This document shows positions 1 to 36,195 of a DNA stretch of 64,000 bases, piece by piece. The notes beneath the pieces are model-generated. The model ran no database searches and had not been told where the DNA came from. It saw only the letters and a list, made by a program, of their open reading frames with translations. The translations under genes were made by a program, and so were the position numbers. How positions within the stretch are numbered: the stretch's first letter is position 1; each line of letters starts with the position of its first letter. The stretch comes from Verrucomicrobiia bacterium (GTDB lineage Bacteria; Verrucomicrobiota; Verrucomicrobiia; Opitutales; Cerasicoccaceae), in NCBI GenBank assembly GCA_030432235.1, contig JAUIHT010000001.1, positions 62,001 through 126,000 of the forward strand, in the 5' to 3' direction.

Positions 1-2223
1 TTTGACGGTTGGCGTGGGCTGAGTTTCTTTGCTGGTGATTCAGTGCAGAGACCTTATCAGGTTTGGAATACTTCCGAGGAAGCCCTCTCGGGCGTCTTTA
101 GATTCACTGTCCGCGATGGGGCTGCTACCCTGTGGACGCATGAAGAAGCGCTGAGCCTGGAGCCGGGTGAGACGACTGATATCAGCATCCCGTTTCCCGC
201 CTTCGAGTCAAAGGGCGAGAAACGTAAGCTGCAGGGAGCCGCGCAGATTGTTTCAGGCGAGGGCGATTCGGTGTTTGATGCGGACTACCCGCTGGCGGTC
301 TTTGTGCGCGACCCACAGGTTTCTCACACCGGGAAAGTGGCGATACTGGGGGCTTCCCCGTCCCTGGAGGAGCAGATACGCCGCTTGGGTGTTCAGGCGG
401 AAGCACTCCCCCCTGACAGTAGCGCGGCAGCGCTGTCCGGATATCCGCTGGTGGTGCTGGGAGATAGCCTGAGCACCGCTTGGCTGGAATCCAATCAAGG
501 GATATTGGCCGAGTACGTTGATGCAGGTGGACGCGTTCTGTCGCTGTTTCCGACGTCAGGCGGTTACCAATGGTTGCCGCTGGAGGTGGGCACTTTGGAA
601 GGGCCTGCGACCCTTAGCTTTCGTCGGGCGGATGACAGTCCGGTTTTTGAAAACCTGGATGACGCGGACCTGCAGATGTGGGCGCCTGGCAACGTGATCG
701 CGTCGTCTATGCTGTTGATGCCTGAAAGTGGAAATTTCGAAATACTCGCGGAAACCGGCTCGCGCTCAGGCCTCAATTTAACGCCGCTCCTGGCGCTTTA
801 TTACGGGAAAGGCAGCTTTATCCTGAGCACTTACGAGATAGTGCCGTTGCTCTCACAGGAGCCGGCGGTGGCACTTCTGCTGCGTAACCTAATCGATTGG
901 TCCTTGGGACTGCCCGAACATGCCTACGCTCCGGCCGTGGTCGTGGGGGGCGAGGAAAGTACTTTTCAGCAATGCCTCAAGTCCATGCGGCTCGATGCAT
1001 CGGTCGTCGGTTCCCTGACAAACACCAATGATGTTCCACAAGCGGGGCTTATCCTGGCCCGGGGTGACAAGTTGAGCGAACGCATACCAGCCACCGTAGC
1101 GCGTGAGTTACTCGCATCCGGAAGCACACTGCTGGTGCATCACGTGACGGAAAACGACGCAGCCTGGCTGCAAAAGGTCGTTGGGCAGGCGCCGGTGTTT
1201 TCCCTGCGCGGCGGAGAAACGGATGTCGCCCCCGGGATCCTGCCGGACGGTTTGCTGGCCAATGCGAGCCTGGCTGACCTGACTTGGGGAGACCGCCCGG
1301 TAAAGCATCCCACTCCTACGAGTGCCGAACTCGTAACCTGGCAAGGCCCCGTCAACGCGCAGCAATCACTGGTCGTCGCGGGTATGTTGCAGACCATACC
1401 TGTCGGTGATGGAAAACTGGTCATCGACCAGATACTATGGGACCTTGAAGATCGGCCTCCGCGCATGGTGTCCATCCTCTTGACCGCTCTGTCCGCGAAA
1501 CTGGCAACGATTCCGAAGGTCTTTCCCGAAACCCGCTTTCGTCCTCTCGACCTGGGATCTTATTGCAACATCAACGTGGGGCGCTTCAGCAACAACTGGA
1601 TCGTCTATCAGGACAGTGGCAAGCTGCCTGAAAATGATCAGGTGCAGGAAACCGAGGCGTCGGCATTTAATCAAGGTGAGTCGATTACGACTGTGGGTGA
1701 CGTGCCGTTTGTCATGCTCGACCCGCGCAAGAACAATAACCAGAACGCTATCATTATCAGGCAGCCTGATAACGATGTTTATTCGGGTTTTGCCGATGGT
1801 GTTGATGGCACGCCTGAAGGCGCTTACGATATAGAGGTTCCACCCTCTGACCGCTTGGTGGAGCGCATCTACTTCTTTCACGCCTACTTGGAGAATTGGC
1901 GTTTAAAAGAAAAGCAGAACAATATCGTAGGCAGTTACCGCATCAATTACATGGATGGAACGAGTGAGATCCTTCCCCTGCAGATTCGATACAACATCGA
2001 CAAATTCAAAAAGAAGGCCCTTAGCGATCTGCCAGCAGCCAAAGTAGTGGCGAACTATCCCGCCGCCAACAACTCCGTAGTCTCCATCTACCGGACGGAG
2101 TGGATAAACCCTTCCCCGACGAAGAAGATTCGGAGCATCGATTTCCTGCCCGGCAATAACATGCGCCGTGTCCCCATCCTCTTCGGCATTACCCTGGTGA
2201 CCGGGGACGCGCAGTATATCTAG
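1..2223 (+). CDS. Secreted glycoside-hydrolase-like protein, 5' partial
   Basis: The frame is open from the first base with no stop, so the GTG at 43 is not a credible start and the gene begins upstream of the window. The first visible ~70 residues look like an immunoglobulin-type sandwich as in family 2 glycosidases. Residues about 100-300 resemble a degenerate class I amidotransferase-like domain (VVLGDS, then GGRVLSLFP), of the kind fused to bacterial beta-galactosidases. From about residue 500 a probable galactose-binding-like beta sandwich follows (PLDLGSYCNINVGRF) and runs to the end. No catalytic residues can be pointed out in the visible part. The next gene starts 13 bp downstream, so they probably share a transcript. 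The role in polysaccharide use is inferred from domain style only. Confidence 0.5.
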   Translation, partial: FDGWRGLSFFAGDSVQRPYQVWNTSEEALSGVFRFTVRDGAATLWTHEEALSLEPGETTDISIPFPAFESKGEKRKLQGAAQIVSGEGDSVFDADYPLAVFVRDPQVSHTGKVAILGASPSLEEQIRRLGVQAEALPPDSSAAALSGYPLVVLGDSLSTAWLESNQGILAEYVDAGGRVLSLFPTSGGYQWLPLEVGTLEGPATLSFRRADDSPVFENLDDADLQMWAPGNVIASSMLLMPESGNFEILAETGSRSGLNLTPLLALYYGKGSFILSTYEIVPLLSQEPAVALLLRNLIDWSLGLPEHAYAPAVVVGGEESTFQQCLKSMRLDASVVGSLTNTNDVPQAGLILARGDKLSERIPATVARELLASGSTLLVHHVTENDAAWLQKVVGQAPVFSLRGGETDVAPGILPDGLLANASLADLTWGDRPVKHPTPTSAELVTWQGPVNAQQSLVVAGMLQTIPVGDGKLVIDQILWDLEDRPPRMVSILLTALSAKLATIPKVFPETRFRPLDLGSYCNINVGRFSNNWIVYQDSGKLPENDQVQETEASAFNQGESITTVGDVPFVMLDPRKNNNQNAIIIRQPDNDVYSGFADGVDGTPEGAYDIEVPPSDRLVERIYFFHAYLENWRLKEKQNNIVGSYRINYMDGTSEILPLQIRYNIDKFKKKALSDLPAAKVVANYPAANNSVVSIYRTEWINPSPTKKIRSIDFLPGNNMRRVPILFGITLVTGDAQYI

Positions 2224-2236
2224 CAGCATTCTCGTT

Positions 2237-2905
2237 ATGACTATTTTTCGCCAACGTACATCTGCTCACGGATTCAGCCTCATCGAATTATTGACGGTAA
2301 TCGCGGTTATTGCCGTACTGGCGGCCATTCTCCTGCCGATGGTTTATCGGGCTCAGGCTTGGTCAGAGCAGAGCAAATGCATGTCCGGGCTGCGGCAGAT
2401 GCAATTGGCGAATATGCAATATGCCACCGACCATGATGGCAGGTTTGTACCCGTATTTACCAAAAGAAACAAACCAAGCAAAAGTGGAAGTGATAAGTTG
2501 TTTTGGCATAACAATCGCGATTTCGTGACTTTGCTGGGATGCCCAGAAGATAAAGCCGCATCCGTGCCACTTGATTTGCGCTGTCCCGTCGAAGGGGTAC
2601 AGCAAACTGGTTGGGGTTTCAACTCAACGGGATTGGATGAGCCCGAGAATGCCGGTGAAAAACGCGATATTGCCCAGCATGAATTGCTGCATCCCAGTGA
2701 AAGCATGGCCATAATAGACGCACTGGACTTCCACGTCTTCCGCTCCAAGGCCGATGCGTATTATGGAGTGGAAACTAAAATATCGAATGCCACGGCCTAT
2801 CGCCACAATGGAAAGGCCTGTCTGGTATACTGGGACGGACACACCGGAGTCCTGACTCGGGAAGAAGTGTTGGGTAACGATGAACTCTGGCAGCAAAAAG
2901 AGTAA
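2237..2905 (+). CDS. Prepilin-like protein with N-terminal methylation motif
   Basis: 222 residues. The N-terminus carries a type IV pilin/pseudopilin signal, GFSLIELL, followed by an unbroken hydrophobic helix (TVIAVIAVLAAILLPM). The leader would be cut after Gly by a prepilin peptidase, leaving a methylated Phe. The C-terminus has the short ending VYWDGHTGVLT, typical of the large family of verrucomicrobial, lentisphaeral and planctomycetal pseudopilin-like proteins. The exact function of these is unknown; they are often placed beside secreted carbohydrate-active enzymes, as here. The start is ATG, 13 bp after the stop of the preceding gene. Confidence 0.85.
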   Translation: MTIFRQRTSAHGFSLIELLTVIAVIAVLAAILLPMVYRAQAWSEQSKCMSGLRQMQLANMQYATDHDGRFVPVFTKRNKPSKSGSDKLFWHNNRDFVTLLGCPEDKAASVPLDLRCPVEGVQQTGWGFNSTGLDEPENAGEKRDIAQHELLHPSESMAIIDALDFHVFRSKADAYYGVETKISNATAYRHNGKACLVYWDGHTGVLTREEVLGNDELWQQKE

Positions 2906-2928
2906 GTGAATCGCTCCATTTACAATAA

Positions 2929-2958
2929 TTGGAAGAGGCGGAGAGAGTCGAACCGATC
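2929..2958 (-). repeat. tRNA/tmRNA 3'-end-like remnant, possible att site
   Basis: Read on the minus strand, this stretch has a T-loop-like GGTTCGACTC and ends in CTTCCA followed by AATTAT. About 20 of 25 positions match the 3' end of ssrA at 35817-35846. The rest of a tRNA cannot be folded here: the 5' T-stem and anticodon arm are missing. It may be an older attachment-site remnant from ssrA or from a tRNA-Ser-like gene. Chance similarity to the general tRNA 3'-end consensus is not excluded. Confidence 0.3.
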
Positions 2959-3043
2959 TTCGACTATCATCTATTTTCACCTAATTAAGCCTCCAGGCTA
3001 GCTTTGTATGCGGACGCAATAAGCAAACCTCGACTCTACGTTT

Positions 3044-3757
3044 CTAGGAGGCCTTTTCTTTCTTGCGCAGCTTACGGAGACCGACGGCGCCAAGCGCCAG
3101 CAGGGCGAGTCCGGTGACTGTTTCAGCCGGCTCGGGAACGGTTTGGGTTGTTCCGGCAAGAATACCGCTCGAGTTCGTATACTTCGATTCATCAATAACA
3201 ATGCGGAATATATAAGGATACCATTCCACGTGGGCCCAACCGTAGAAATAGGTGCCGCCTCCCTTGTCTAATCGAAAGCCAATGTAGCCGCTTTGAATAC
3301 CACCGTCAAAGTTACTGTTGGTATTGAATGCGATATTCAAAGCTCCTATCGCCGCAGAATTTTTCGCAAAGCTCGTTTGGCTACTCAAATCGAAAGTGGA
3401 GGTCACCGACCTGCCGACAGTGCTGTAGCGAGTATAAATGTTTTTTCGAAAAACCAGTCCGGCATTTTCGGAAATCACCTGTGATTGTGCAAAAAGCTTA
3501 AAATGGAGTCCGCCAGTCGCGATAGAAATGTCTCCGCCAAAATTGATCGTCGCGCTGGCATGTATGAATTGACCGTAATGGCTTACATCGGCGACCTCTC
3601 CAATTTTCAGGGATGACGTAATGCCGTCTACGGTCCATTGCGCGGCGGTGGCATCGGTACTGTAGGCGGTTGCGGTTCCTCCTGTGTTCACTATTCCATG
3701 GGCGCTGGTGCAGGCAATGAGAGAAGAAATGGAAGAAACGACATCTTTTGCTTTCAT
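3044..3757 (-). CDS. PEP-CTERM-type secreted protein
   Basis: 237 residues of unknown function. The C-terminus has a sorting signal: VPEPAETVTGLALLALGAVG then a basic tail RKLRKKEKAS, i.e. Pro-Glu-Pro, a hydrophobic span and positive residues. Such tails are recognised by exosortases that move proteins to the cell surface or matrix. The N-terminus (MKAKDVVSSISSLIACTSAHG) is a weak but plausible signal peptide. The body is rich in Gly, Ser and Thr with beta-strand-like alternation and no recognised catalytic motif. No exosortase gene lies in this window. It is transcribed away from the adhesin operon starting at 4357. Confidence 0.75.
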   Translation of the reverse strand: MKAKDVVSSISSLIACTSAHGIVNTGGTATAYSTDATAAQWTVDGITSSLKIGEVADVSHYGQFIHASATINFGGDISIATGGLHFKLFAQSQVISENAGLVFRKNIYTRYSTVGRSVTSTFDLSSQTSFAKNSAAIGALNIAFNTNSNFDGGIQSGYIGFRLDKGGGTYFYGWAHVEWYPYIFRIVIDESKYTNSSGILAGTTQTVPEPAETVTGLALLALGAVGLRKLRKKEKAS

Positions 3758-4356
3758 GCATCTTATATATTAAATAGGGGCCGATAAATCAATAATTAAT
3801 GCCTTTATTTTGCTTATCTATAGTTATGGCCATGGTCATAATATTTTAATATAAAAAAGTTATTTTATACGTAATCTGATTGGGCATTAGATGATTCGTG
3901 TCCTCGCTTGGAAGTGATTTTATGGTGTATTAGGTTTTTAACATGACTTACTGCGTAGTCTTTCTATCGGGGCCAAAAGGCTCTGTTTGGAAATTGTAAT
4001 ACGTTTTTATTAAGCAATAACGACGCCTATCATTTTTTATGAATGTGAAAGATTGCTCTGTTTCTGTTTGTACTTACGCGATGTTAACCAAGGCCTTTAA
4101 TAAGCATAACAATTGTATCGTAAAAAAATGTAAAGCTTTCATAATCGATTTTGTGTAGTTGCAGAAATTGTTTTTTTGAATCTATAATAGCATCAGAATT
4201 CCGGTTCTGCGTTCTTTCATATCAATTATTTAAAAAAGACTACGGCTTATTTGAAAAGCTGTTTAAGGTTCAAGTTTCCGCTTTAAAAAAAGACCATTCT
4301 ATACTGATTATTCAAGGGGTCGGGTTTTATTAGTAACAAAGTAATAAGGCCTATTT
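3758..4356. other. AT-rich intergenic region between divergent surface genes
   Basis: About 600 bp without a convincing gene. It is clearly more AT-rich than its surroundings. A TATAAT hexamer lies at 4183-4188 with TTGCAG 18 bp upstream (4159-4164), a possible weak promoter for the adhesin operon. An imperfect 16-bp palindrome around TGGCCATGG lies near 3826-3841, upstream of the minus-strand gene. The 60-codon frame at 4151-4333 has no ribosome site or recognisable content. Confidence 0.35.
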
Positions 4357-7300
4357 ATGAAACTACCATTAGTCCCTAGCCTCTTCCTACTACTGTATTC
4401 CCCATTGCTGCATGCGGCACTGCCAAGTACGCTTCCTTATCAGGGGCGTGTTTCTGAAGATGGTTCCCTACCAACGGGTACGCGCTATTTTAAGTTCGCC
4501 ATCACCGATGGAGTCTCGACGCTGTACTGGGATAGCGATCAGGATGTTGGCTTGGGTACGCCGGGCATGGAAGTAACCGTGACTAATGGCCTATTCTCGG
4601 TCGTCCTGGGCAATAACGATACGGGTAACCCCACCATCCCGAGTGGCGTCTGGGATAATGACGCCCTCTATTTGCGCATCTGGTACAGTGAGGACAGTAC
4701 TGATGGCACGGATGGAACCTTCGATTTAATTACCGGTACAGACATACCTATCCTGCCCAGTGCTCATGCGCACCGTGCGACCATCGCTGACACGGCAACC
4801 ACTGCCACCACCGCAACCACTGCCACCACCGCGACGACGGCCTCTGGCCTCACTGGCAGCGACATTGATGGCAGCGGGCTTATAAACCTCAGTGGAGCCG
4901 CGCTCAGCTCGGGCACCGTGCCTTCCGCCGCGCTGGCCGATGCGGCGGTGACGAATGCCAAGCTTGCCGATGCTGCCGTGCAGGAAAATAACGTTGATTT
5001 CGACACCGTGATTTCGGGGACGGGCTTCCCGCTTTTCGAAGATATTGCGGCATCGGTCGCTTTGACAACGGAGCAGCCTTTGGCTTCTGTGGCGGTGTCA
5101 GGCCAGGAAAACACCCAGACCGTCAGCTATGAATTTCCGCTCCCCGGTAGCCTTCTCTTGACCTTGGATGGCAGCGGATTTCCGGTCTCCGTTTATACGC
5201 CATCGGACGCAGTCGGCGGTGTGTCGACTGCGACTATCGACGGCAAGGCCGCCGTCGCCCTCTACGACGATGGTAATATAAAGCTGCTCATTGCTGATTC
5301 CGCGACCTTGACTGCGGCAACCACCTGGAGCACCTACACGCTGGCAACAGGAGTTACCGGTAGTAATGCTGCTTTCAATGAAGCCACGGCCTATAATCAA
5401 ATTGATCTAGAGGAAATAGATGGTCGTCCAGCTGTCGCCTACTTTAACACGGATACTCGGCTACTACATATGGTTATCGCGGATAGTGCTCCAGTCAGTG
5501 GCAGTACGACCTGGACGGATGTTGCCGTGCCTGTTGGGCTTCTTGCTCTAACTGATTTCGACCTTGCTGAAGTCAATGGGAGGGCAGCGATTGCATATAA
5601 CTCTCCTGATTCGGAAATTAGCTACGTGATTGCCGATGATAACAACTATGCCGCAAGTAATGACGGCTGGACTGGTTTCACGTTTCAGACTAATAATGCC
5701 CAACCATTTGTGGATTTTGCCGTTATCAACGGACAGGTTGTCTTAGTGTACTTAAATGCAGCGGGCAACGGTATTGTCCTTAGCTGGGCTGAGGAAACAG
5801 CAACTGAATTGATAACTGACTGGAATAACGAGGGCTTTGGCTCATCCTTTACCGCAGGTTCAGTCACGGGCCTGAGCGTTGGGGAGGCTGGGGGCACGCC
5901 CATCATTGCTTTAAGCACCAACAACTCCATTACCTATTACGAAACGGACGACCCCACGATCTCCCTCGCGAGTTCGTTTACTGACCGAACAGTTGATGGC
6001 CTGGCATATACTCAGTTGTCGAAACCCATCCTGGTTGAATTCTCCGGCCTCCCGGGGATCGCCTATCAAGATACCACATTCACTTCCGTCGGCCTGTCCA
6101 CGGATTATGCCATTGCCGGCGAGTCGGACGGGCAGAGCTTTTCTGTAATCTCCAATTCAGCCGCTGCCTTGGGCGATGTGGACGTCATCAACGGCAAGCC
6201 GGTTATTTCTTACGTCGATGCGGGCGGTGACGTGATACTCCTGCAAGGCGAGTTCGTCGACTGGCAAGGGAAAGCCGGTATGCTGACGGGATTCTCCTTT
6301 ACCTCAACCGGCGTCAACCTGAACTACCTGGGCGGCGGTAGTAATACTCTCAGTCTCGGAAATATTGCTATCAATGGAGGCAACATCACCGATAGTAGCC
6401 TGACGGGAGCCGATATCGGTGACGGCACCCTGACCGGATCAGACCTTGCGACTGGCACGATCGCTACCGCCTACCTGGCCGACAATGCGGTAACCAATGC
6501 GAAAATGGCCGATAATGCCATCGGCTCAGCGGAACTGATCGACGCCGCGGTCACCGCGACCAAACTGGCTGACAACGCGGTGACGAATGCGAAAATGGCC
6601 GACGAGGCCGTTACCACGGCCAAGATTGCGGATGACACCGTGACTCTGGCCAAGCTTAGCTTTGGGGGTGATGGGTTTGCCGTAGGTGGCACCTACAATG
6701 GGTCAGCCAACGGTAGTAAGAATCCTGACCCGGACTCCGGCGGAGCTGGCGCTCGCATGTTCTGGTACCCCGAAAAAGCCGCTTTTCGTGCAGGTGCTAC
6801 TGGAGCTGGTAATGAGTGGACGGAGGCTTCGATTGGGCACTATAGCATTGCCTTGGGTAGAGACACGAAGGCATCCGGCAGCCACAGTACGGCCATTGGT
6901 TATGGAACGAATGCAACGGGTTTTGAATCGTTTGCCGCTGGCTATCAAAGTACTGCGTCGGCTAGCCGCGCTGTTGCCATGGGCCATCAAAACATTGCTT
7001 CGCAGGATGACTCCGCAGCCTTTGGTAAAAATACAACTGCCAGTAATTACGAGGCATTTGCCTGTGGGTTCAACACGACGGCATCTGGCTTTCGATCCTT
7101 TGCCAGCGGAAGGGATACCGAAGCCTCCGCAGAAGACGCCTTTGCGGGTGGCAATGGCACGACGGCCTCCGGCTTTCGCTCCTTCGCCATCGGTGAGGGC
7201 AGCGTAGCCTCGGGGATAAACGCCTTTGCAGGTGGCAAAGGCACCATCGCTTCGGTGGACGATAGCTTTATCATCGGGAGATATAATGAAGAAACGTCAG

Positions 7301-7902
7301 CCTATTTTATATTAGGAAATGGAACAAGTGATGTCTCACGGAGTAATGCCATGACGTGTGATGCTTCAGGCAATCTCTACATCGCGGGTAATGCCTTTAA
7401 GCCGAGTGGTGGCTCCTGGATCGCCACTTCGGACCGACGACTGAAGGATGATATCCGTCACTATGAACGAGGCTTGTCGGAGGTTTTAGCAATCAAGCCA
7501 ATCCGATTCCATTACAATGAACTCAGCGGTATGGACACGGAGAATGAGTATGTCGGTGTCATCGCTCAGGAGCTGCAGAAAGTCGTGCCCGAGATGGTCG
7601 ACGAATTCAGTCTGAATAGCGAAACCTACCTTCAGGTCGACCCTTCCGATTTTACCTACATTCTAATCAACGCGGTCAAAGAGCAGCAGGTGCAGATTGA
7701 CGCCTTGGAAAAGCAAGTAGTCGGCCAGCAAGCGGTGATCGGTGCGATGCAGGATCAGCTTGCCGCACTGCAAGCCCAAGTCTCGGGCCTCGTCGCTCAG
7801 CGCGAAGACCTGAACGCAGCTCCGACCCCAATGGTCGAGACCGCTTCAATCTCTGCTGAAGAGCAGGGGAGCGTTCTCGAGTTACAGACTGCGACTCGTT
7901 AG
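4357..7902 (+). CDS. Large surface adhesin with YadA-like head repeats and S74 domain
   Basis: 1181 residues. Signal peptide MKLPLVPSLFLLLYSPLLHA, then a conserved start of the mature protein (LPYQGRVSEDG). A Thr/Ala run at about 147-163 is encoded by an 18-bp tandem repeat. Two blocks of repeated AVTNAKLAD-type units lie near residues 190-205 and 700-770. Between them are propeller-like repeats with VDVINGKPVISY-type motifs. Residues about 828-978 hold roughly 14-residue YadA-head-like repeats (AIGYGTNATG, AAGYQSTAS). From about 1026 comes a peptidase S74/intramolecular chaperone domain, SDRRLKDDI, with the Ser...Lys pair used for self-cleavage in that family, then a C-terminal coiled coil (about 1110-1160). 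It probably forms a trimeric fibre. The signals for outer membrane anchoring are not visible. It is first in an operon with the next two genes. Confidence 0.8.
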   Translation: MKLPLVPSLFLLLYSPLLHAALPSTLPYQGRVSEDGSLPTGTRYFKFAITDGVSTLYWDSDQDVGLGTPGMEVTVTNGLFSVVLGNNDTGNPTIPSGVWDNDALYLRIWYSEDSTDGTDGTFDLITGTDIPILPSAHAHRATIADTATTATTATTATTATTASGLTGSDIDGSGLINLSGAALSSGTVPSAALADAAVTNAKLADAAVQENNVDFDTVISGTGFPLFEDIAASVALTTEQPLASVAVSGQENTQTVSYEFPLPGSLLLTLDGSGFPVSVYTPSDAVGGVSTATIDGKAAVALYDDGNIKLLIADSATLTAATTWSTYTLATGVTGSNAAFNEATAYNQIDLEEIDGRPAVAYFNTDTRLLHMVIADSAPVSGSTTWTDVAVPVGLLALTDFDLAEVNGRAAIAYNSPDSEISYVIADDNNYAASNDGWTGFTFQTNNAQPFVDFAVINGQVVLVYLNAAGNGIVLSWAEETATELITDWNNEGFGSSFTAGSVTGLSVGEAGGTPIIALSTNNSITYYETDDPTISLASSFTDRTVDGLAYTQLSKPILVEFSGLPGIAYQDTTFTSVGLSTDYAIAGESDGQSFSVISNSAAALGDVDVINGKPVISYVDAGGDVILLQGEFVDWQGKAGMLTGFSFTSTGVNLNYLGGGSNTLSLGNIAINGGNITDSSLTGADIGDGTLTGSDLATGTIATAYLADNAVTNAKMADNAIGSAELIDAAVTATKLADNAVTNAKMADEAVTTAKIADDTVTLAKLSFGGDGFAVGGTYNGSANGSKNPDPDSGGAGARMFWYPEKAAFRAGATGAGNEWTEASIGHYSIALGRDTKASGSHSTAIGYGTNATGFESFAAGYQSTASASRAVAMGHQNIASQDDSAAFGKNTTASNYEAFACGFNTTASGFRSFASGRDTEASAEDAFAGGNGTTASGFRSFAIGEGSVASGINAFAGGKGTIASVDDSFIIGRYNEETSAYFILGNGTSDVSRSNAMTCDASGNLYIAGNAFKPSGGSWIATSDRRLKDDIRHYERGLSEVLAIKPIRFHYNELSGMDTENEYVGVIAQELQKVVPEMVDEFSLNSETYLQVDPSDFTYILINAVKEQQVQIDALEKQVVGQQAVIGAMQDQLAALQAQVSGLVAQREDLNAAPTPMVETASISAEEQGSVLELQTATR
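4795..4830 (+). repeat. 18-bp tandem repeat, two copies, inside the adhesin gene
   Basis: The unit GCAACCACTGCCACCACC occurs twice in direct succession (4795-4812 and 4813-4830), with partial degenerate flanks. It encodes alternating Ala-Thr-Thr. Being a multiple of three, copy-number change by slippage would keep the frame and alter the length of a probable linker after the first domain. Confidence 0.8.
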
Positions 7903-7959
7903 TCTTCAACCCCAACGAAGTCCTATGTTTTTCCACTTATTCAGACCTATGGGAGCGTC

Positions 7960-8808
7960 ATGAAGACCTGCTATACTTTTATCATGCCAGCGACACTGCT
8001 GCTCCTCAGCCAAGCCTACGGGTTTAACTATGCGCTAACCATGGCGGAGGAGACATTTACGGCAGGCGATCCTATTCCTCTCGATACTCGATTAGCTGTT
8101 GTGCGTAACGGCCCCAGCGCCATTCTTCACGGCAGCTCTGAAATACTGGCCGCTGACGCTCTCGAGAATCCCTTCAATACCCAATCCTTGGAGCTGTTGC
8201 CCACGCAGTCTGGCAGTTTCTACATCGCACAACAGGAATTTGAGTTACAGCAGCCTAACACGGATAGCCTTTCCATCGGTATGAGCCTATACCTGGACAA
8301 TTTCCAAACCGGCTCGGGTGGCGCCTTTATTCCGGATGAACAGAGCGACTATTTCTCAATCCTCTTCGACACGCCCGGGGTCGAGCGAATTGATTTTACT
8401 TCAAGCGGCTCGGCTACGAGTGGACGAGTGCTCGTACACGGCGGTACGGAGGAGATCGGAACCTTTGACTATGGTACGATTATGCAAATCCTCGTGGATG
8501 TTGATGTCCTCAACAATACCTGGGCGATTAGCATCTCGCAAAATAGCACCACCGTTGCAGAGCTTTCGAATAGCGCTACTTTTTACGAGGAATTTGGTCA
8601 AAATACCTATAGCGGTCAGATCGAGTCGGTGCGCTTTGCCCTGGTCGATGGCACGGCTGATGGATCCAATTCACCACAGGCCATTTACGACGACGTATCG
8701 ATCGTACCGGAACCCGCTGAAGGCCTTTGGCTGTTCGCTATATTACCTGCCCTGGCAGTCGCATTGCGGCGTCGTTTTATTAGTAATAGGAAGGAGCTTC
8801 TGTTATGA
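7960..8808 (+). CDS. PEP-CTERM-type secreted protein
   Basis: 282 residues. Signal peptide MKTCYTFIMPATLLLLSQAYG. The C-terminus is IVPEPAEGLWLFAILPALAV followed by ALRRRF, a PEP-CTERM-like sorting signal. The central part reads as a beta-sandwich (DFTSSGSATSGRVLVHGG, then a stretch ending YDDVSIVPEP) much like concanavalin-type or LamG-like domains in other PEP-CTERM proteins, with no enzyme motif. It follows the adhesin by 57 bp and overlaps the start of the next gene in an ATGA junction, so the three genes are probably co-transcribed. Confidence 0.7.
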   Translation: MKTCYTFIMPATLLLLSQAYGFNYALTMAEETFTAGDPIPLDTRLAVVRNGPSAILHGSSEILAADALENPFNTQSLELLPTQSGSFYIAQQEFELQQPNTDSLSIGMSLYLDNFQTGSGGAFIPDEQSDYFSILFDTPGVERIDFTSSGSATSGRVLVHGGTEEIGTFDYGTIMQILVDVDVLNNTWAISISQNSTTVAELSNSATFYEEFGQNTYSGQIESVRFALVDGTADGSNSPQAIYDDVSIVPEPAEGLWLFAILPALAVALRRRFISNRKELLL

Positions 8809-12393: not shown

Positions 12394-13095
12394 CTACTGC
12401 TCAGATTTGAGTTGGTGAATCGCGAAATTCCTGACGGCTTCGCTGGTGTGTTCCGTCATCATTTCCACCGGAAAGTAGGTTGTCCACCCTTCGGCGGGGA
12501 GCAACTGGTTTTCTATCGCCTTACGAACATTGGACACATGTTGACTCATCCAAGCAATGGCCCTTGTCGGCCGCTCCGTTGACTGATGTTGATTAAGTAA
12601 GTCCCTGAAGAAATACCGAGTCACCAAGACCAGAAGGTTTAAATGTTTTTGATCCTGACGTTCCGCCTGGTCGAGGGTGAGTAAATTGGCCAGCTGAGCT
12701 TGAAACAGGGCTGGCGGCGCCAGGAACCACATGGGTCTGACATTGTAAATGATGGGAATGGAGCCGTCTTCGAGTTCTTTTTCGGTAAGCCCATTGACTG
12801 TTCGGATGACCTCTGCGGTCTGCCCTTCCGGCCCTTGCAGGATGTGCGTAACCAAACGCATACACCCTTTGGTCGGTAGAGGCAGTTCTTTCCAGTTTGG
12901 AGGTAGCCGTAGCTCAGGGACCCGCCGATAGAAGTCAGCATCTCGACTCGTGAAGGGCTGATAGTCACGAATCTTTGGCTCGAACGCCTGATAACGTTCC
13001 GCCCAAAGATTAATTGCCTGCCCACCGACGAGTAACAACCCAGTCCCTTCATCAAGAAGGTCTAGGTAGTCCTTAACTGTCCGATCTCGTTTCAA
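12394..13095 (-). CDS. Putative minimal nucleotidyltransferase (possible toxin)
   Basis: 233 residues. The N-terminal part has LLVGGQAINLWAERY followed at about residue 48 by SRDADFY. This GG...(16-30 residues)...DxD layout fits the polymerase-beta-type nucleotidyltransferase fold used by AbiEii and MenT-like toxins and by CCA-type enzymes. The remainder is helical (ALFQAQLANLLTLDQAERQDQKHLNLL). The start overlaps the end of the small upstream gene by 23 bp, a layout common in toxin-antitoxin pairs. Substrate unknown; housekeeping roles cannot be excluded. Confidence 0.55.
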   Translation of the reverse strand: MKRDRTVKDYLDLLDEGTGLLLVGGQAINLWAERYQAFEPKIRDYQPFTSRDADFYRRVPELRLPPNWKELPLPTKGCMRLVTHILQGPEGQTAEVIRTVNGLTEKELEDGSIPIIYNVRPMWFLAPPALFQAQLANLLTLDQAERQDQKHLNLLVLVTRYFFRDLLNQHQSTERPTRAIAWMSQHVSNVRKAIENQLLPAEGWTTYFPVEMMTEHTSEAVRNFAIHQLKSEQ

Positions 13096-13357: not shown

Positions 13358-14116
13358 CTACGGGTACTTAATCGTTAGCTCACTGTCGCCGGAGAGAATT
13401 GCGTAGCAAGTTTGTTGTCCGTCGATGCACCATGAGCGCCCTTTTTGGCGTGCGCCCTGAGATGAACTCGTATGCCCCACGATTTGTGGCCACGGCAGGT
13501 CATCCTGGAATTCCTCATCCCAGTCCAGCCATGTTATGCCACCAGTTTCAGCCTCACCACCCCGTGTCATCCCCGGTATTAGAAGCCTATCTTCACTATT
13601 ACCTAAATTTGCGAGCGTATGTGTACAGTGAGCGTCGAACGCATCTAGAGGCTCAGTATGATAAGCGTATTGTTTCCAAATATCCGAAGTTAAACCGGCA
13701 TGGCTAATGAAATGTCCGTTAACCATTTTGAATAAGCGGCAATCTTTCCAGAAGTCGTCATCCAGAACCTTGTTTATCTTCTTCCCTTTGCTGTTTGTGT
13801 AACCTGTTAGCTTGTAAGATAGATTTCTGGGATTCTGAAAGCAGATAAAGCGTCTACGCCCCTCAAGATAGGGAATGTCGTGATTTCCCAGTAAGAAGGT
13901 TATGCGGCTGCCGTGTATTTCACGTAGTTTAACCAAGTAATCACAGGTAGCACTTACCGAGGCAGCATGCCTAGACGTCGAGTCAAAATAATCACCCCCA
14001 AAGAGAAGATGAGACCAATTGCCTTCCTCTTTCTTCAAAATACAGCGAACCCAGTCGATATGTTGATGCATATCGAATATGAGTAAGCAGGCTTTGGTAT
14101 TCAAGGTGTGGCTCAC
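13358..14116 (-). CDS. Calcineurin-like metallophosphoesterase
   Basis: 252 residues with the metal-binding motifs of the family in order: FDMHQH (DxH variant), FGGDYFD (GDxxD), LLGNHD (GNHD), HFISHAG and IVGHTSS (GHxH-like, here GHT). The protein is therefore a probable two-metal phosphatase or nuclease. It starts two bases after the stop of the RlaP-type nucleotidyltransferase, so the two are co-translated. Metallophosphoesterases and RlaP-type enzymes are both found in bacterial RNA repair gene sets; a role in trimming or repairing RNA ends is an inference from this pairing, not visible in the sequence itself. Confidence 0.8.
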   Translation of the reverse strand: MSHTLNTKACLLIFDMHQHIDWVRCILKKEEGNWSHLLFGGDYFDSTSRHAASVSATCDYLVKLREIHGSRITFLLGNHDIPYLEGRRRFICFQNPRNLSYKLTGYTNSKGKKINKVLDDDFWKDCRLFKMVNGHFISHAGLTSDIWKQYAYHTEPLDAFDAHCTHTLANLGNSEDRLLIPGMTRGGEAETGGITWLDWDEEFQDDLPWPQIVGHTSSSQGARQKGRSWCIDGQQTCYAILSGDSELTIKYP

Positions 14117-14118
14117 AG

Positions 14119-14889
14119 CTATTCCTTCCAGACACGTCGAATCGTTTCCCGCAGGAAGTTATCTGCGGGCTTGACGACACGGTCGCCTGTATCCAGTTCA
14201 CTAGCGACGGCCTCCATATGGGCCATTTGCTTTTCCAGGAAGAGGTTGATTGATGGAATCTTGGGTCCCTTTCCGAGTTCGGGCGTCTCCTTCTTCAAGG
14301 CAACGAGGCCACGGATATCCTCCTTGAGCTGGCCTTCGTCGAGAAGCTCATCCACGAGCGTCTCAAAACGCATAGGTACGGGGCCGCTACGGTTTTCCAA
14401 CCAGAGACAGCCGAGGACAGGCCGAAGAATGTACAGGTACTTCTTCAGTTTCACTACGTCTTCCTTCATGAACTCCCGGTAGTTGTGGCGTGCCATGTGC
14501 AGGTAGTGGTAGGCGCACGACTTCGGCGAGAAGTAGAGCGGGACCAGCTCGCGGATACCGGCGACGAACGCGTCGTCCTGCTGGTACACGATGGGCGAAT
14601 CCAGCCACTCCAGGAGAGGCGGGTTGGACTTACGCATAAGGTTAAGCGTCTTGCGTAGTTCCCAGCCGCTGATGTCGAGCGCATCGTTGATCGGCATTTC
14701 AATGACGTCCCGGCGAGGGGTAACCGTCACATACCACTCCGGGCGCTCTATGTAGATGAAGCGCACATCCCAGTCACTATCGGGGGAAGGAAAGCCCCAG
14801 GCACGACTGCCCGATTCACACGCATAGAGCACTCGGACGCCGCGTTCGCGTTCGATTTCAGTAAGCTTTTGTTGGATGAGTTCGTTCAT
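14119..14889 (-). CDS. RlaP/YcgL-type nucleotidyltransferase
   Basis: 256 residues. The N-terminus has the polymerase-beta nucleotidyltransferase signature CESGSRAWGFPSPDSDWDVR: GS at about 27-28 followed by the DxD pair, then FIYIERPEWYV. The layout matches the YcgL/RlaP family (Pfam PF10127, annotated as RNA-repair-associated polymerase beta family). The rest is helical and includes LLEWLDSPIVY and SYCAYHYLHMARHNYREF-like segments typical of the family. It is the first gene of a minus-strand operon and is preceded by an attenuator-like leader (14901-15049). The biochemical activity is not established for this subgroup. Confidence 0.8.
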   Translation of the reverse strand: MNELIQQKLTEIERERGVRVLYACESGSRAWGFPSPDSDWDVRFIYIERPEWYVTVTPRRDVIEMPINDALDISGWELRKTLNLMRKSNPPLLEWLDSPIVYQQDDAFVAGIRELVPLYFSPKSCAYHYLHMARHNYREFMKEDVVKLKKYLYILRPVLGCLWLENRSGPVPMRFETLVDELLDEGQLKEDIRGLVALKKETPELGKGPKIPSINLFLEKQMAHMEAVASELDTGDRVVKPADNFLRETIRRVWKE

Positions 14890-14900
14890 GGCGGGTTCGG

Positions 14901-14939
14901 AAAACAGAAAACCCGTCGCCGGAAGGTCGGCTGACGGGT
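14901..14939 (-). terminator. Attenuator-type terminator hairpin before RlaP gene
   Basis: On the minus strand: ACCCGTC-A-GCCG, loop ACCTTC, CGGC-GACGGGT, then TTTTCTGTTTT. The stem has eleven pairs with one bulged base and is followed by a T-rich tract, the form of an intrinsic terminator. It ends about 12 bp before the ATG of the nucleotidyltransferase (14889), so it would stop transcription before the gene. The 5' side of the stem (14929-14935) can pair instead with 14971-14977, which would break the terminator. Confidence 0.6.
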
Positions 14940-14977
14940 CACGCTAATACGGTTTGGATACGTTGCGACGGTCAGCC
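14929..14977 (-). promoter_or_regulatory. Possible antiterminator helix in the RlaP leader
   Basis: On the minus strand GGCTGAC (14971-14977) is perfectly complementary to GTCAGCC (14929-14935). The latter is part of the terminator stem, so the two structures exclude each other. GGCTGA also contains the stop codon of the 25-codon upstream ORF. CCGTCGC just downstream (14965-14971 region) is in turn complementary to GCGACGG of the terminator 3' arm. The switch is inferred by eye; no folding energies were calculated. Confidence 0.45.
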
Positions 14978-15049
14978 CAAGAACAGCACATTCGTACCGC
15001 AGAGGTAGCTCTGGCGGGTCTCGAAAATGTGTTGTGATTTGAGTGACAT
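14972..15049 (-). CDS. Candidate 25-residue leader peptide
   Basis: ATG at 15049, stop TGA at 14972-14974. The peptide starts MSLKSQHIFE and ends SYLCGTNVLFLG. Too short for routine gene calls. The TGA lies in the 5' arm of the candidate antiterminator, so a ribosome paused at or near the stop would cover that arm and change the RNA fold. No good Shine-Dalgarno precedes it on this strand; a stem-loop (15049-15082) sits directly before the ATG. Translation is therefore uncertain. Confidence 0.4.
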   Translation of the reverse strand: MSLKSQHIFETRQSYLCGTNVLFLG

Positions 15050-15093
15050 CAGTCGTGAAGATAGGAGGAGCTTCAGGACTGACAAGGTTTTTT
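15049..15093 (+). terminator. Hairpin plus T-run between divergent operons
   Basis: Twelve-base arms at 15049-15060 and 15071-15082 pair with one mismatch around the loop ATAGGAGGAG. A run of six T follows at 15088-15093. On the plus strand this has intrinsic-terminator form, but no plus-strand gene lies upstream, so it would act as a leader attenuator or as a protein-binding dyad. The loop holds a perfect AGGAGG, yet no start codon follows at a suitable distance. Confidence 0.4.
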
Positions 15094-15108: not shown

Positions 15109-15170
15109 TTAATTGTTGTCTTCAGCGCGTGCTTGCCAGGGCTCAGTGTAATCTAATATGTAATCACCAA

Positions 15171-16454
15171 ATGGCAGAATCTACTAAGCGGGCGGCAAAT
15201 AATCTGGAAGCTATTCTAAGTCAGAAGGATTTGAAGGGTGTCGAGGCTGCACTCTATCCCAAGCCGCAGGCTGCGAATACGGTGATTCCCGCTGGTTATT
15301 CCGGCACAAGCGAAGATATAAAGCGTCGCCATGCTTTGTTAGGCGTTTCGGAAGAATATCTTGGGCGTTTGCTTCCTTCAGGAGGTTTTGATGAGTTGGA
15401 GGTTTTCTCGAATAATGCAGAAAATCTCGTGGGGGTTGTGCAGGTGCCTCTTGGAGTTGCTGGCCCTTTACGTATCAACGGCATCCATGCCCAAGGTGAC
15501 TACATCATACCTTTGGCCACGCACGAGGCAGCTCTGGTGGCATCCTACCATCGTGGTGCGCTGGCTATCACGCAGTCGGGCGGCTGCACAACCATGCTAC
15601 TGAATGAGGCGGTCTCGCGGTCACCGGGCTTTGTCTTCGATAACTTGATCGAGACGGGGAAGTTTCTGGCCTGGCTGTTGCCTCAGGAAGGTCGGTTACG
15701 TGAGGTGGCCGAGTCCACGACACGGCATGGGAAACTCATCGACATGAGCGCGACCATCGAGGGTAACCACGTCTATTTGCGCTTTGACTACCACACCGGT
15801 GACGCCGCCGGCCAGAATATGGTCACTATCGCCACGCAGGCGGTCTGTGACTTTATCCGTAAAAACTCTCCTGTCCGTCCCAAGGCCGTCTATGTCGAGG
15901 CCAACCAGTCCGGCGACAAGAAGGCCAGTAGTCAGTCCTTTCAGCACGTGCGCGGGAAGAAAGTTACCTGCGAGGTCGAGCTACCCGCCGAGGTTCTCAA
16001 ACGCTCATTCAGGGCCACATCTCGGCAGATGGAGGACTACTGGCGTATCTCCGCTCTGGGTGGTGCGCTCTCCGGCACCATCGGCTTGCAGGGGCACTAC
16101 GCCAACGGTCTTGCGGCTCTCTTTATCGCTTGCGGTCAGGACGCCGCTTGCGTCGCAGAGGCCGCGGTGGGCATGACCCGCTTCGAAGCACGTGGAGATG
16201 CCCTCTACGCAACCGTCACGCTGCCGAATCTCATCGTCGGGACGGTCGGCGGCGGCACCGGCCTGCCGACTCAGAGGGCTTGCCTGGAAATCCTGGGACT
16301 ATACGGTGCGGGCAAGGCGAAGGCCTTTGCTGAGGTCTGTGCCGGGGTGGTTCTAGCGGGAGAACTATCGATCATCGCCGCCTTGGCGACGGGGAACTTC
16401 TCCCGTGCCCATGAGGTGCTGGCTCGTTTGCGAAAACGCCAAACCCATGACTAA
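15171..16454 (+). CDS. Class I-type HMG-CoA reductase homologue
   Basis: 427 residues from ATG 15171; an in-frame GTG at 15129 would add 14. HMG-CoA reductases turn HMG-CoA plus two NAD(P)H into mevalonate. Catalytic landmarks are present: Glu in PLATHEAALVAS (about 118), Lys in GDKKASS (about 249), Asp in GQDAACVAE (about 323), and the C-terminal His in SRAHEVL (about 413). ENLVGVVQVPLGVAGP and GTVGGGTGLPTQ are further family signatures. The usual DAMGMN cofactor/dimer motif of class I is DAAGQN here. No other mevalonate gene is near, and the gene is coupled to six enzymes of a different sort, so it may reduce HMG-CoA for a dedicated product or act on another CoA thioester. Confidence 0.9.
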   Translation: MAESTKRAANNLEAILSQKDLKGVEAALYPKPQAANTVIPAGYSGTSEDIKRRHALLGVSEEYLGRLLPSGGFDELEVFSNNAENLVGVVQVPLGVAGPLRINGIHAQGDYIIPLATHEAALVASYHRGALAITQSGGCTTMLLNEAVSRSPGFVFDNLIETGKFLAWLLPQEGRLREVAESTTRHGKLIDMSATIEGNHVYLRFDYHTGDAAGQNMVTIATQAVCDFIRKNSPVRPKAVYVEANQSGDKKASSQSFQHVRGKKVTCEVELPAEVLKRSFRATSRQMEDYWRISALGGALSGTIGLQGHYANGLAALFIACGQDAACVAEAAVGMTRFEARGDALYATVTLPNLIVGTVGGGTGLPTQRACLEILGLYGAGKAKAFAEVCAGVVLAGELSIIAALATGNFSRAHEVLARLRKRQTHD

Positions 16455-35816: not shown

Positions 35817-35846
35817 ATAAAATTGGTGGAGGTGGCGGGAGTCGAA
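35817..35846. repeat. ssrA-side att repeat
   Basis: Thirty bases spanning the ssrA T-loop, 3' acceptor strand, CCA-coding TGG and seven bases beyond. It matches 12198-12227 at 29 of 30 positions. As in other ssrA islands, the repeat supplies an intact 3' end, so the gene stays functional after integration. Confidence 0.65.
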
Positions 35847-36195
35847 CCCGCGTGTCCGGAGGTTTCACGCATAGCGTCTACGAGCGTAGTCTGTCTATTG
35901 GGCTTCGGGAGTGTGGAGCGAACAAACACGCTTCACTCCCCCTAGTGGCCTGTGGAGTACGGCGACGGCCCGGTCACCCGGCCGTCACTATGCCTGCTGG
36001 CTGACGCCTTGATCCCTTAGCAGGTGTCCAGGTCAAGACGAGGCTGACTTAAGCAGCCATAAGTTCGCCCTGAGGGGCGAACTCGACGATTTTATTTTCG
36101 CCATTTATAGGTGTGATGGATTTGATGCGGAGCCAACCATCATCTCCGGCCCGCAACCATGCCCTACATCTCCGGGTCGAATCCGTAACACCCCC
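35824..36195 (-). ncRNA. ssrA: tmRNA
   Basis: 372 nt with CCA encoded. The 5' end GGGGGTG (36195 downward) pairs with CACCTCC near the 3' end; a T-stem/loop GCGGG-TTCGACT-CCCGC precedes it. The 5' region GTTACGGATTCGACCCGG is the conserved tRNA-like D-loop part. The tag frame reads NGENKIVEFAPQGELMAA and stops at TAA (36051 region); the exact resume codon is uncertain by one residue. The tag is added to proteins on stalled ribosomes and directs their destruction. It serves as integration site of the adjoining element. Confidence 0.95.

Follow-up and report, generated by a model that had tools for sequence, protein, structure and literature searches.

The window is the whole stretch of 64,000 nucleotides that was analysed. 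Its minus strand carries a gene for the nucleotidyltransferase RlaP, which is the first gene of an operon and is preceded by a leader. The genes at this locus are the following.

14119-14889, minus strand: RlaP nucleotidyltransferase, first operon gene (PF10127, 306.8 bits)
13358-14116, minus strand: calcineurin-like phosphoesterase, starting 2 nt after RlaP (PF00149, 27.6 bits)
12394-13095, minus strand: third ORF, operon membership unsure
15129-16454, plus strand: HMG-CoA reductase, divergent from the leader
Between the divergent HMG-CoA reductase gene and the RlaP gene, minus strand: leader of ~160 nt

The PF10127 match of RlaP covers positions 1-248 of 249, and its score compares with a curated cut-off of 23. 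The predicted role of RlaP is to replace lost nucleotides ahead of ligation (PMC7824862), and the protein is also mentioned in PMC6514570. No match for RtcB is found in the window genome, which is 96% complete, and its RlaP would therefore need another ligase. No match to the ORF at 12394-13095 is found in Pfam, PHROGs, PADLOC, or NCBIfam; by eye, its stretch LLLVGGQAINLW resembles the start of a nucleotidyltransferase. In our reading, the HMG-CoA reductase more likely starts at 15171. Searched at E 1e-20, 9 other genomes of the family yield no match to this gene, which, together with the isolated RlaP, suggests acquired DNA. The window also contains a tmRNA gene at 35824-36195, with the tag GENKIVEFAPQGELMAA.

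The elements of the leader are listed below, with regions numbered as in the four-region scheme of the trp attenuator.

15058-15085, minus strand: sigma-70-like promoter candidate TTGTCA-16-TATCTT, 9/12 matches to the motif
15049-15082: inverted repeat across the promoter-like site, 12-nt arms, 92% complementary
14972-15049, minus strand: 25-codon ATG leader ORF, stop TGA at 14974-14972, peptide MSLKSQHIFETRQSYLCGTNVLFLG
15026-15047, minus strand: region 1, the start of the leader ORF, which can pair with the ORF end at 14992-14971
14971-14977, minus strand: region 2, antiterminator arm GGCTGAC, which overlaps the stop codon of the ORF
14929-14935, minus strand: region 3, GTCAGCC, common to the antiterminator and the 5' arm of the terminator
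14901-14940, minus strand: predicted intrinsic terminator (regions 3:4), hairpin 14940-14910 followed by the T tract TTCTGTTTT at 14909-14901

The 3' edge of the promoter candidate lies 8 nt before the ATG of the leader ORF. Sigma-70-like sites number 2 in 2 kb, compared with 1.1 in shuffles, and by eye the window site is placed as the promoter-like sites of related leaders are. The repeat at 15049-15082 is near-perfect and extends as far as the leader ORF start. It could serve as an operator for a protein or could sequester the start codon, and a hairpin is possible given a transcription start further upstream. No ribosome-binding site is seen before the 25-codon ORF. The leader is present in a single copy in its own genome.

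An earlier note on this DNA had claimed that the short minus-strand ORF ends in GGCTGA and that this end can pair with GTCAGCC in the terminator arm. The pairing is confirmed as an inverted repeat in which GGCTGAC (14977-14971) and GTCAGCC (14935-14929) are complementary at 7/7 positions. The strong terminator that the note placed just before the RlaP gene is likewise present. Its hairpin has a dG of -20.4 and 12 pairs, 9 of them G-C, and the T tract ends 20 nt upstream of the RlaP ATG (14889). The predicted terminator sits between the candidate promoter and the first structural gene, RlaP. A simple terminator scan lacks hairpin 14940-14910 in its output, in our reading because the stem is bulged. 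Region 1 and the ORF end form a 22-nt imperfect inverted repeat that is 73% complementary.

Judged from the sequence, we favor on balance a trp-type ribosome-controlled transcription attenuator before the RlaP RNA-repair operon as the candidate function of this leader. Region 2, at the ORF stop, has two alternative pairing partners, namely region 1 at the ORF start or region 3. A ribosome translating all the way to the stop of the ORF would cover region 2, the 3:4 helix would form, and transcription would end. With the ribosome held at an earlier point, region 2 would stay accessible during the synthesis of region 3 by RNA polymerase; the 2:3 helix would then form and RlaP would be transcribed. 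Among the matches listed in mainly open-access literature on attenuation, RNA repair, and tRNA damage, no title or abstract describes such a leader.

The length of the ORF is at chance level, as an ATG ORF of >=25 codons occurs in 930/2000 dinucleotide shuffles of the 281-nt intergenic region. The 7-nt complement taken alone is borderline and recurs in 38, 41, 48, and 105 of 1000 shuffles with 60, 100, 150, and 230 nt upstream, respectively. Both results agree with a rival explanation in which a plain terminator stands before RlaP by chance and lowers or insulates its expression, the pairing with the ORF end being accidental. We regard this as unlikely, though worth weighing. The energy gained when upstream sequence pairs with the 5' arm of the terminator is matched in 2/300 shuffles (60 nt) and in 0/300 (100 nt). 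For the 60-nt piece, the total energy stands out less (32/300), and the plain duplex energy of the window arm is reached in 14/500 shuffles. The pairing of the window arm is moderately significant. None of 80 windows outside the stop zone of the window leader matches the pairing of the stop zone with the terminator arm. The whole 241-nt leader has an unusually good fold (z -3.55; 1/200 shuffles equal), and the 91-nt stretch between the ORF end and the gene folds like shuffles (z -0.57; 61/200). Segment 1-2 reaches -26.0 kcal/mol, and 0/100 shuffles are as low.

The position of the terminator also speaks against the plain terminator. Among 318 mechanical ORFs of >=150 aa in 464 kb of the window genome, a strong terminator lies 12-60 nt before the first start of one, namely RlaP. 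Strong terminators within 80 nt after the stop accompany 9 of the same 318 ORFs. In addition, the nearest upstream gene among mechanical ORFs points away from the leader in the window and at three further RlaP loci (L112, L197, and L198), so no upstream gene needs a terminator at these four loci.

The effect of a ribosome on the favored attenuator was modeled by removing all sequence as far as 12 nt beyond the A-site codon, and selected positions are reported. As soon as region 3 has been completed, it pairs upstream with a probability of ~0.64-0.84 if the ribosome is in the body of the ORF. Near the stop, this probability falls from 0.70 to 0.14 in the window. In the related leaders described below, it falls from ~0.7 to 0.08 in L112 and L197, from ~0.7 to 0.05 in L198, and from ~0.8 to 0 in L199. 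L213 models poorly, with little drop (0.64 to 0.55). In the full-length transcript, the terminator is favored at all reported positions in the window, L112, L197, and L213, and the switch in these leaders would therefore have to be kinetic. For L198 and L199, the full-length transcript favors the antiterminator at most reported positions in the ORF body. The ribosome-free model also favors 2:3 (0.68 in the window). Helix 1:2 is therefore not clearly dominant, and failed initiation would also be expected to open the operon.

Five further leaders stand before RlaP genes of the Chthoniobacterales type: L112/L113 (IMG/VR), L197, L198, L199, and L213. All six leaders share one plan, in which a predicted promoter is followed by a short ORF, an arm at the ORF end, a terminator, and RlaP. 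By eye, the related leaders have a -35 element of the TTGACA/TTGACG type 17 nt before a weak -10, the -35 of L199 being lost at the contig end. Their ORFs are 39-43 codons long and open with an ATG that, by eye, lies 12-13 nt downstream of the -10 and has the common context TTC(C)AATGA; the terminator follows after another 25-36 nt. L112 and L197 also have a competing frame of 60-61 codons running up to the RlaP ATG, which was rejected because a stop interrupts it in L198.

The arm sequences differ between families and their complementarity is retained. Cognate arms pair with energies of -17.0 in the window, -21.3 in L197, -19.2 in L198, -19.5 in L199, and -13.3 in L213. Across four families (the window, clade A, L199, and L213), the cognate assignment of arms is the best of 24. 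The best 18-nt partner of the terminator arm is located at the ORF end in 6/6 leaders; in L199, this 18-nt window begins 16 nt before the stop, one nt outside the scored zone. Also in L199, 13/119 outside windows reach the stop-zone value; 8 of these share sequence with the arm, and the other 5 are located ~75 nt upstream of the stop. Duplexes as good arise in 14 (window), 9 (L112), 6 (L197), 10 (L198), and 40 (L199) of 500 shuffles, the clade A values not being independent of each other. In L213, the unrestricted best duplex lies elsewhere and is no better than shuffles (134/500). The ORFs that stop at the arm were partly picked after the arms had been seen. When the transcript is folded up to region 3, the minimum-energy structure has the 2:3 helix in 6/6 leaders. 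Folding of regions 1-2 is matched in 2/100 shuffles for L112 and is no stronger than shuffles in L197, L198, L199, and L213.

The recurrence of this plan across leader families strengthens the attenuator reading. What the earlier note proposed in this respect is upheld in part, by the anatomy (helices 1:2, 2:3, and 3:4, with an arm on the stop codon) and by the five further RlaP leaders. The presence of an arm at the ORF end in those five leaders also counts against the accidental pairing that a plain terminator would imply.

RlaP itself is scattered. It is present in 14/322 genomes of the order of the window, in 15/213 of the order of genome G322, and, at a stricter limit, in 28/387 genomes of the phylum. 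Relatives over most of the length of the window RlaP are at best ~50-56% identical. One plasmid record matches it at 60-80%, and one viral contig matches at 71% over 45 residues. The RlaP of G717, from the class of the window, is nearly identical to that of Verrucomicrobium sp. BvORR106 (L215, L061). The window leader has no sequence relatives in the plasmids searched, and nothing beyond matches of 23-35 nt is found in the 322 genomes of the order; alignment-based covariation is therefore not available for the window itself.

Leaders were compared at 185 RlaP loci that are distinct in the 100 nt upstream. Under a loose criterion, a terminator-like hairpin lies within 130 nt of the start at 13/185 loci. 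Under a strict criterion, 7/185 have a terminator, namely the window, L074, L078, L112, L197, L199, and L213. Among control genes in the same loci, 4/484 pass the strict criterion, a second sign that such terminators are rare before starts, and 0 of these 4 has a short ORF ending on the best duplex. The majority of RlaP loci have no leader, which, like the lack of sequence relatives of the window leader in the sets searched, is in keeping with a plain terminator.

The exact ORF rule of the control was applied to the seven loci and L198. It is passed by the window, L198, L199, and L074, the last with a weak duplex. L112 and L197 have a 43-codon ORF and yet fail the rule, because, in our reading of the script, their frame is open beyond the 180-nt limit that the rule sets for an upstream stop. 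L213 fails because its best unrestricted duplex lies elsewhere, and L078 also fails. L198 and L069 are one locus. Its RlaP start (near 2193 on the minus strand in L198, near 3989 in L069) reads ATA where relatives have ATG, which may be a rare start codon or a sign of a decaying gene; L198 was overlooked in start finding because of this ATA.

Candidate leaders at three other loci were considered and rejected. In Sideroxydans (L038), a duplex at the ORF end (3/500 shuffles) was set aside as likely repeat-derived by eye, and the L038 terminator is below the strict criterion. Paenibacillus L074 and L078 have short ORFs whose ends are close to the best duplex, and these duplexes are not clearly above shuffles (82 and 492 of 500, respectively). 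Apart from these three, the Paenibacillus loci L034 and L036 have a short ORF after GGAGG within ~220 nt before RlaP. Its peptide, translated by eye, starts MIRxQISxxNxTIE, and a terminator-like hairpin lies ~60 nt before RlaP. A motif near ACTTT(C/T)GCC(A/G/C)TGT is shared, by eye, by Paenibacillus L037, L048, L065, and L083, roughly 60-130 nt before RlaP.

In a quick tree, the RlaPs of L112, L197, L198/L069, L199, and L213 and the leaderless L212 form one clade with a support of 82 (not starred); the L069 leader copy is unlabeled in this tree. The window RlaP is outside that clade and has no well-supported neighbors. Its separation from the other leader-bearing RlaPs suggests two origins of the leader layout.

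The leader peptides drift. Between L112 and L198, the leader ORF differs in 9 nonsynonymous and 8 synonymous codons, and between L199 and L213 in 20 nonsynonymous and 3 synonymous codons. For the RlaP genes of L112 and L198, the corresponding numbers are 16 and 41. No purifying selection on the leader peptides is seen in the L112/L198 and L199/L213 pairs. A search with the L213 peptide in 210 genomes from the order of G322 yields, apart from L213 itself, a single match at E below 1e-4, the RlaP leader L199; two further matches are found at E 0.005-0.01. The earlier note had named conservation of the end of the leader peptide as a check. This check fails, as the window leader has no relatives among the 322 genomes of the order beyond matches of 23-35 nt and the related ORFs are without purifying selection; peptide conservation is thus rejected as evidence. 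An open leader frame is maintained in L112, L197, and L198. As far as the sequences tell, what is preserved is the position of the ORF, its start context, and the arms, rather than the residues.

Runs of control codons are absent, with the longest run of a single residue being 1 in the window and 2 in the other leaders. The window peptide has 16 different residues in 25 (P 0.098), that of L112 has 19 (0.062), and that of L197 has 20 (0.007); L198, L199, and L213 are unremarkable, and deliberate sampling of all 20 amino acids by the ORF is not claimed. With drifting peptides and no control-codon runs, these leaders fit a general sensor of translation better than one dedicated to a single amino acid, drug, or nascent peptide.

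In leaders of the vmlR/bmrCD type, the mechanism operates through a leader ORF. Such systems are also built of a leader ORF and a conditional terminator (PMC9226507, PMC4191407), and the RlaP leader might similarly be a drug- or peptide-specific stalling leader of the erm/vmlR type, on which a defined nascent peptide stalls the ribosome. The lack of a conserved peptide makes this very improbable, as do the genes themselves, which are predicted to serve RNA repair and not resistance.

The drift of the peptides while the helices are kept is also what would be expected of an attenuator with a signal other than the ribosome. The choice between 2:3 and 3:4 would then be made by a small molecule or by a protein, with RlaP itself, an RNA-binding regulator, and a phage antiterminator as the protein candidates. 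Between L112 and L198, fewer differences are found in the 65 nt that follow the ORF (7/65) than in the ORF itself (22/129), and one of the leaders is on a phage-like contig, both of which fit such a signal. In contrast, no common aptamer-like core is seen, and several families have the arm at the end of the ORF. Rfam 15 at gathering score finds in the window only the tmRNA, located elsewhere than the leader, and the leader gives sub-threshold matches of 12.9 and 12.6 bits. Only tRNAs reach the threshold in 17 RlaP loci, a set that includes L069 and L112 and not L197, L199, or L213. Taken together, a signal of this kind appears improbable.

In clade A, the operon is RlaP-RtcB, with RtcB scoring 294.8 bits in L112 and 164.8 bits in L249, and the RtcB frame begins at the end of RlaP. 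RtcB is present in 93/210 genomes of the order of G322. Of 30 RtcB-led loci in that order, 20 are readable, and a terminator before the start is found in none of the 20. In L112/L113, 12 tRNA genes identified by ARAGORN follow RlaP-RtcB at 6802-8561, and 7 of the 12 reach the Rfam threshold in L112. A Phage_attach/head-closure gene is located upstream of the L112 leader; with the tRNA genes, it places L112 on a phage-like contig. The IMG/VR locus L115 has 19 tRNA genes by ARAGORN at 47-3915, one of them on the other strand, just before RlaP.

An ORF with many different codons would report slow or broken translation in general, e.g., translation slowed by cleaved tRNAs. Cleaved tRNAs are the damage that RlaP is predicted to help repair. 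As a physiological signal, tRNA damage is plausible and is the least certain part of this reading. A wider proposal, which we hold tentatively, is that the leader is a general sensor of tRNA integrity made of RNA alone. Any stall in the ORF would switch on transcription of the RNA-repair operon, which encodes RlaP and, in clade A, also RtcB; the layout would have arisen at least twice, and the phage-like contig would carry its copy beside a tRNA array as an inducible answer to tRNA-cleaving defense.

The RlaP leader resembles the attenuators of the trp, his, and leu type in its leader ORF, its 1:2, 2:3, and 3:4 helices, its terminator directly before the first gene, and its region 2 at the ORF end. 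Unlike these attenuators, it has no run of control codons, precedes an RNA-repair operon, has a drifting peptide, and has an ORF that begins within ~13 nt of a -10-like element. The ilvBNC leaders of Corynebacterium are described as ribosome-mediated attenuators of amino-acid operons (PMC10272879, PMC11857589). In vmlR/bmrCD, leader translation decides on read-through, as is proposed for RlaP. The genes in vmlR/bmrCD serve resistance or export, and the signal is an antibiotic (PMC9226507, PMC4191407).

Among RNA-repair systems, Salmonella rtcBA is induced by tRNA fragments through RtcR (PMC7790460). An operon for RNA repair that answers to damaged tRNAs is thus shown for rtcBA and proposed here for RlaP. 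The two differ in that RtcR is a protein activator that binds tRNA fragments, whereas the proposed RlaP sensor would consist of leader RNA and the ribosome (PMC7790460). In Anabaena, rtcB and a large tRNA array are under the control of TrcR and answer to translational stress (PMC10272220). L112 similarly joins RlaP-RtcB with tRNA genes. Unlike the RlaP leader, TrcR is a transcriptional repressor, and the terms 'attenuat' and 'terminator' do not occur in the text of that paper (PMC10272220). Compared with RtcR and TrcR, direct reading of translation by a leader would be a simpler arrangement that needs no dedicated protein and could serve genomes and phages that lack RtcR. It would also allow the signal to which RlaP systems respond to be tested concretely.
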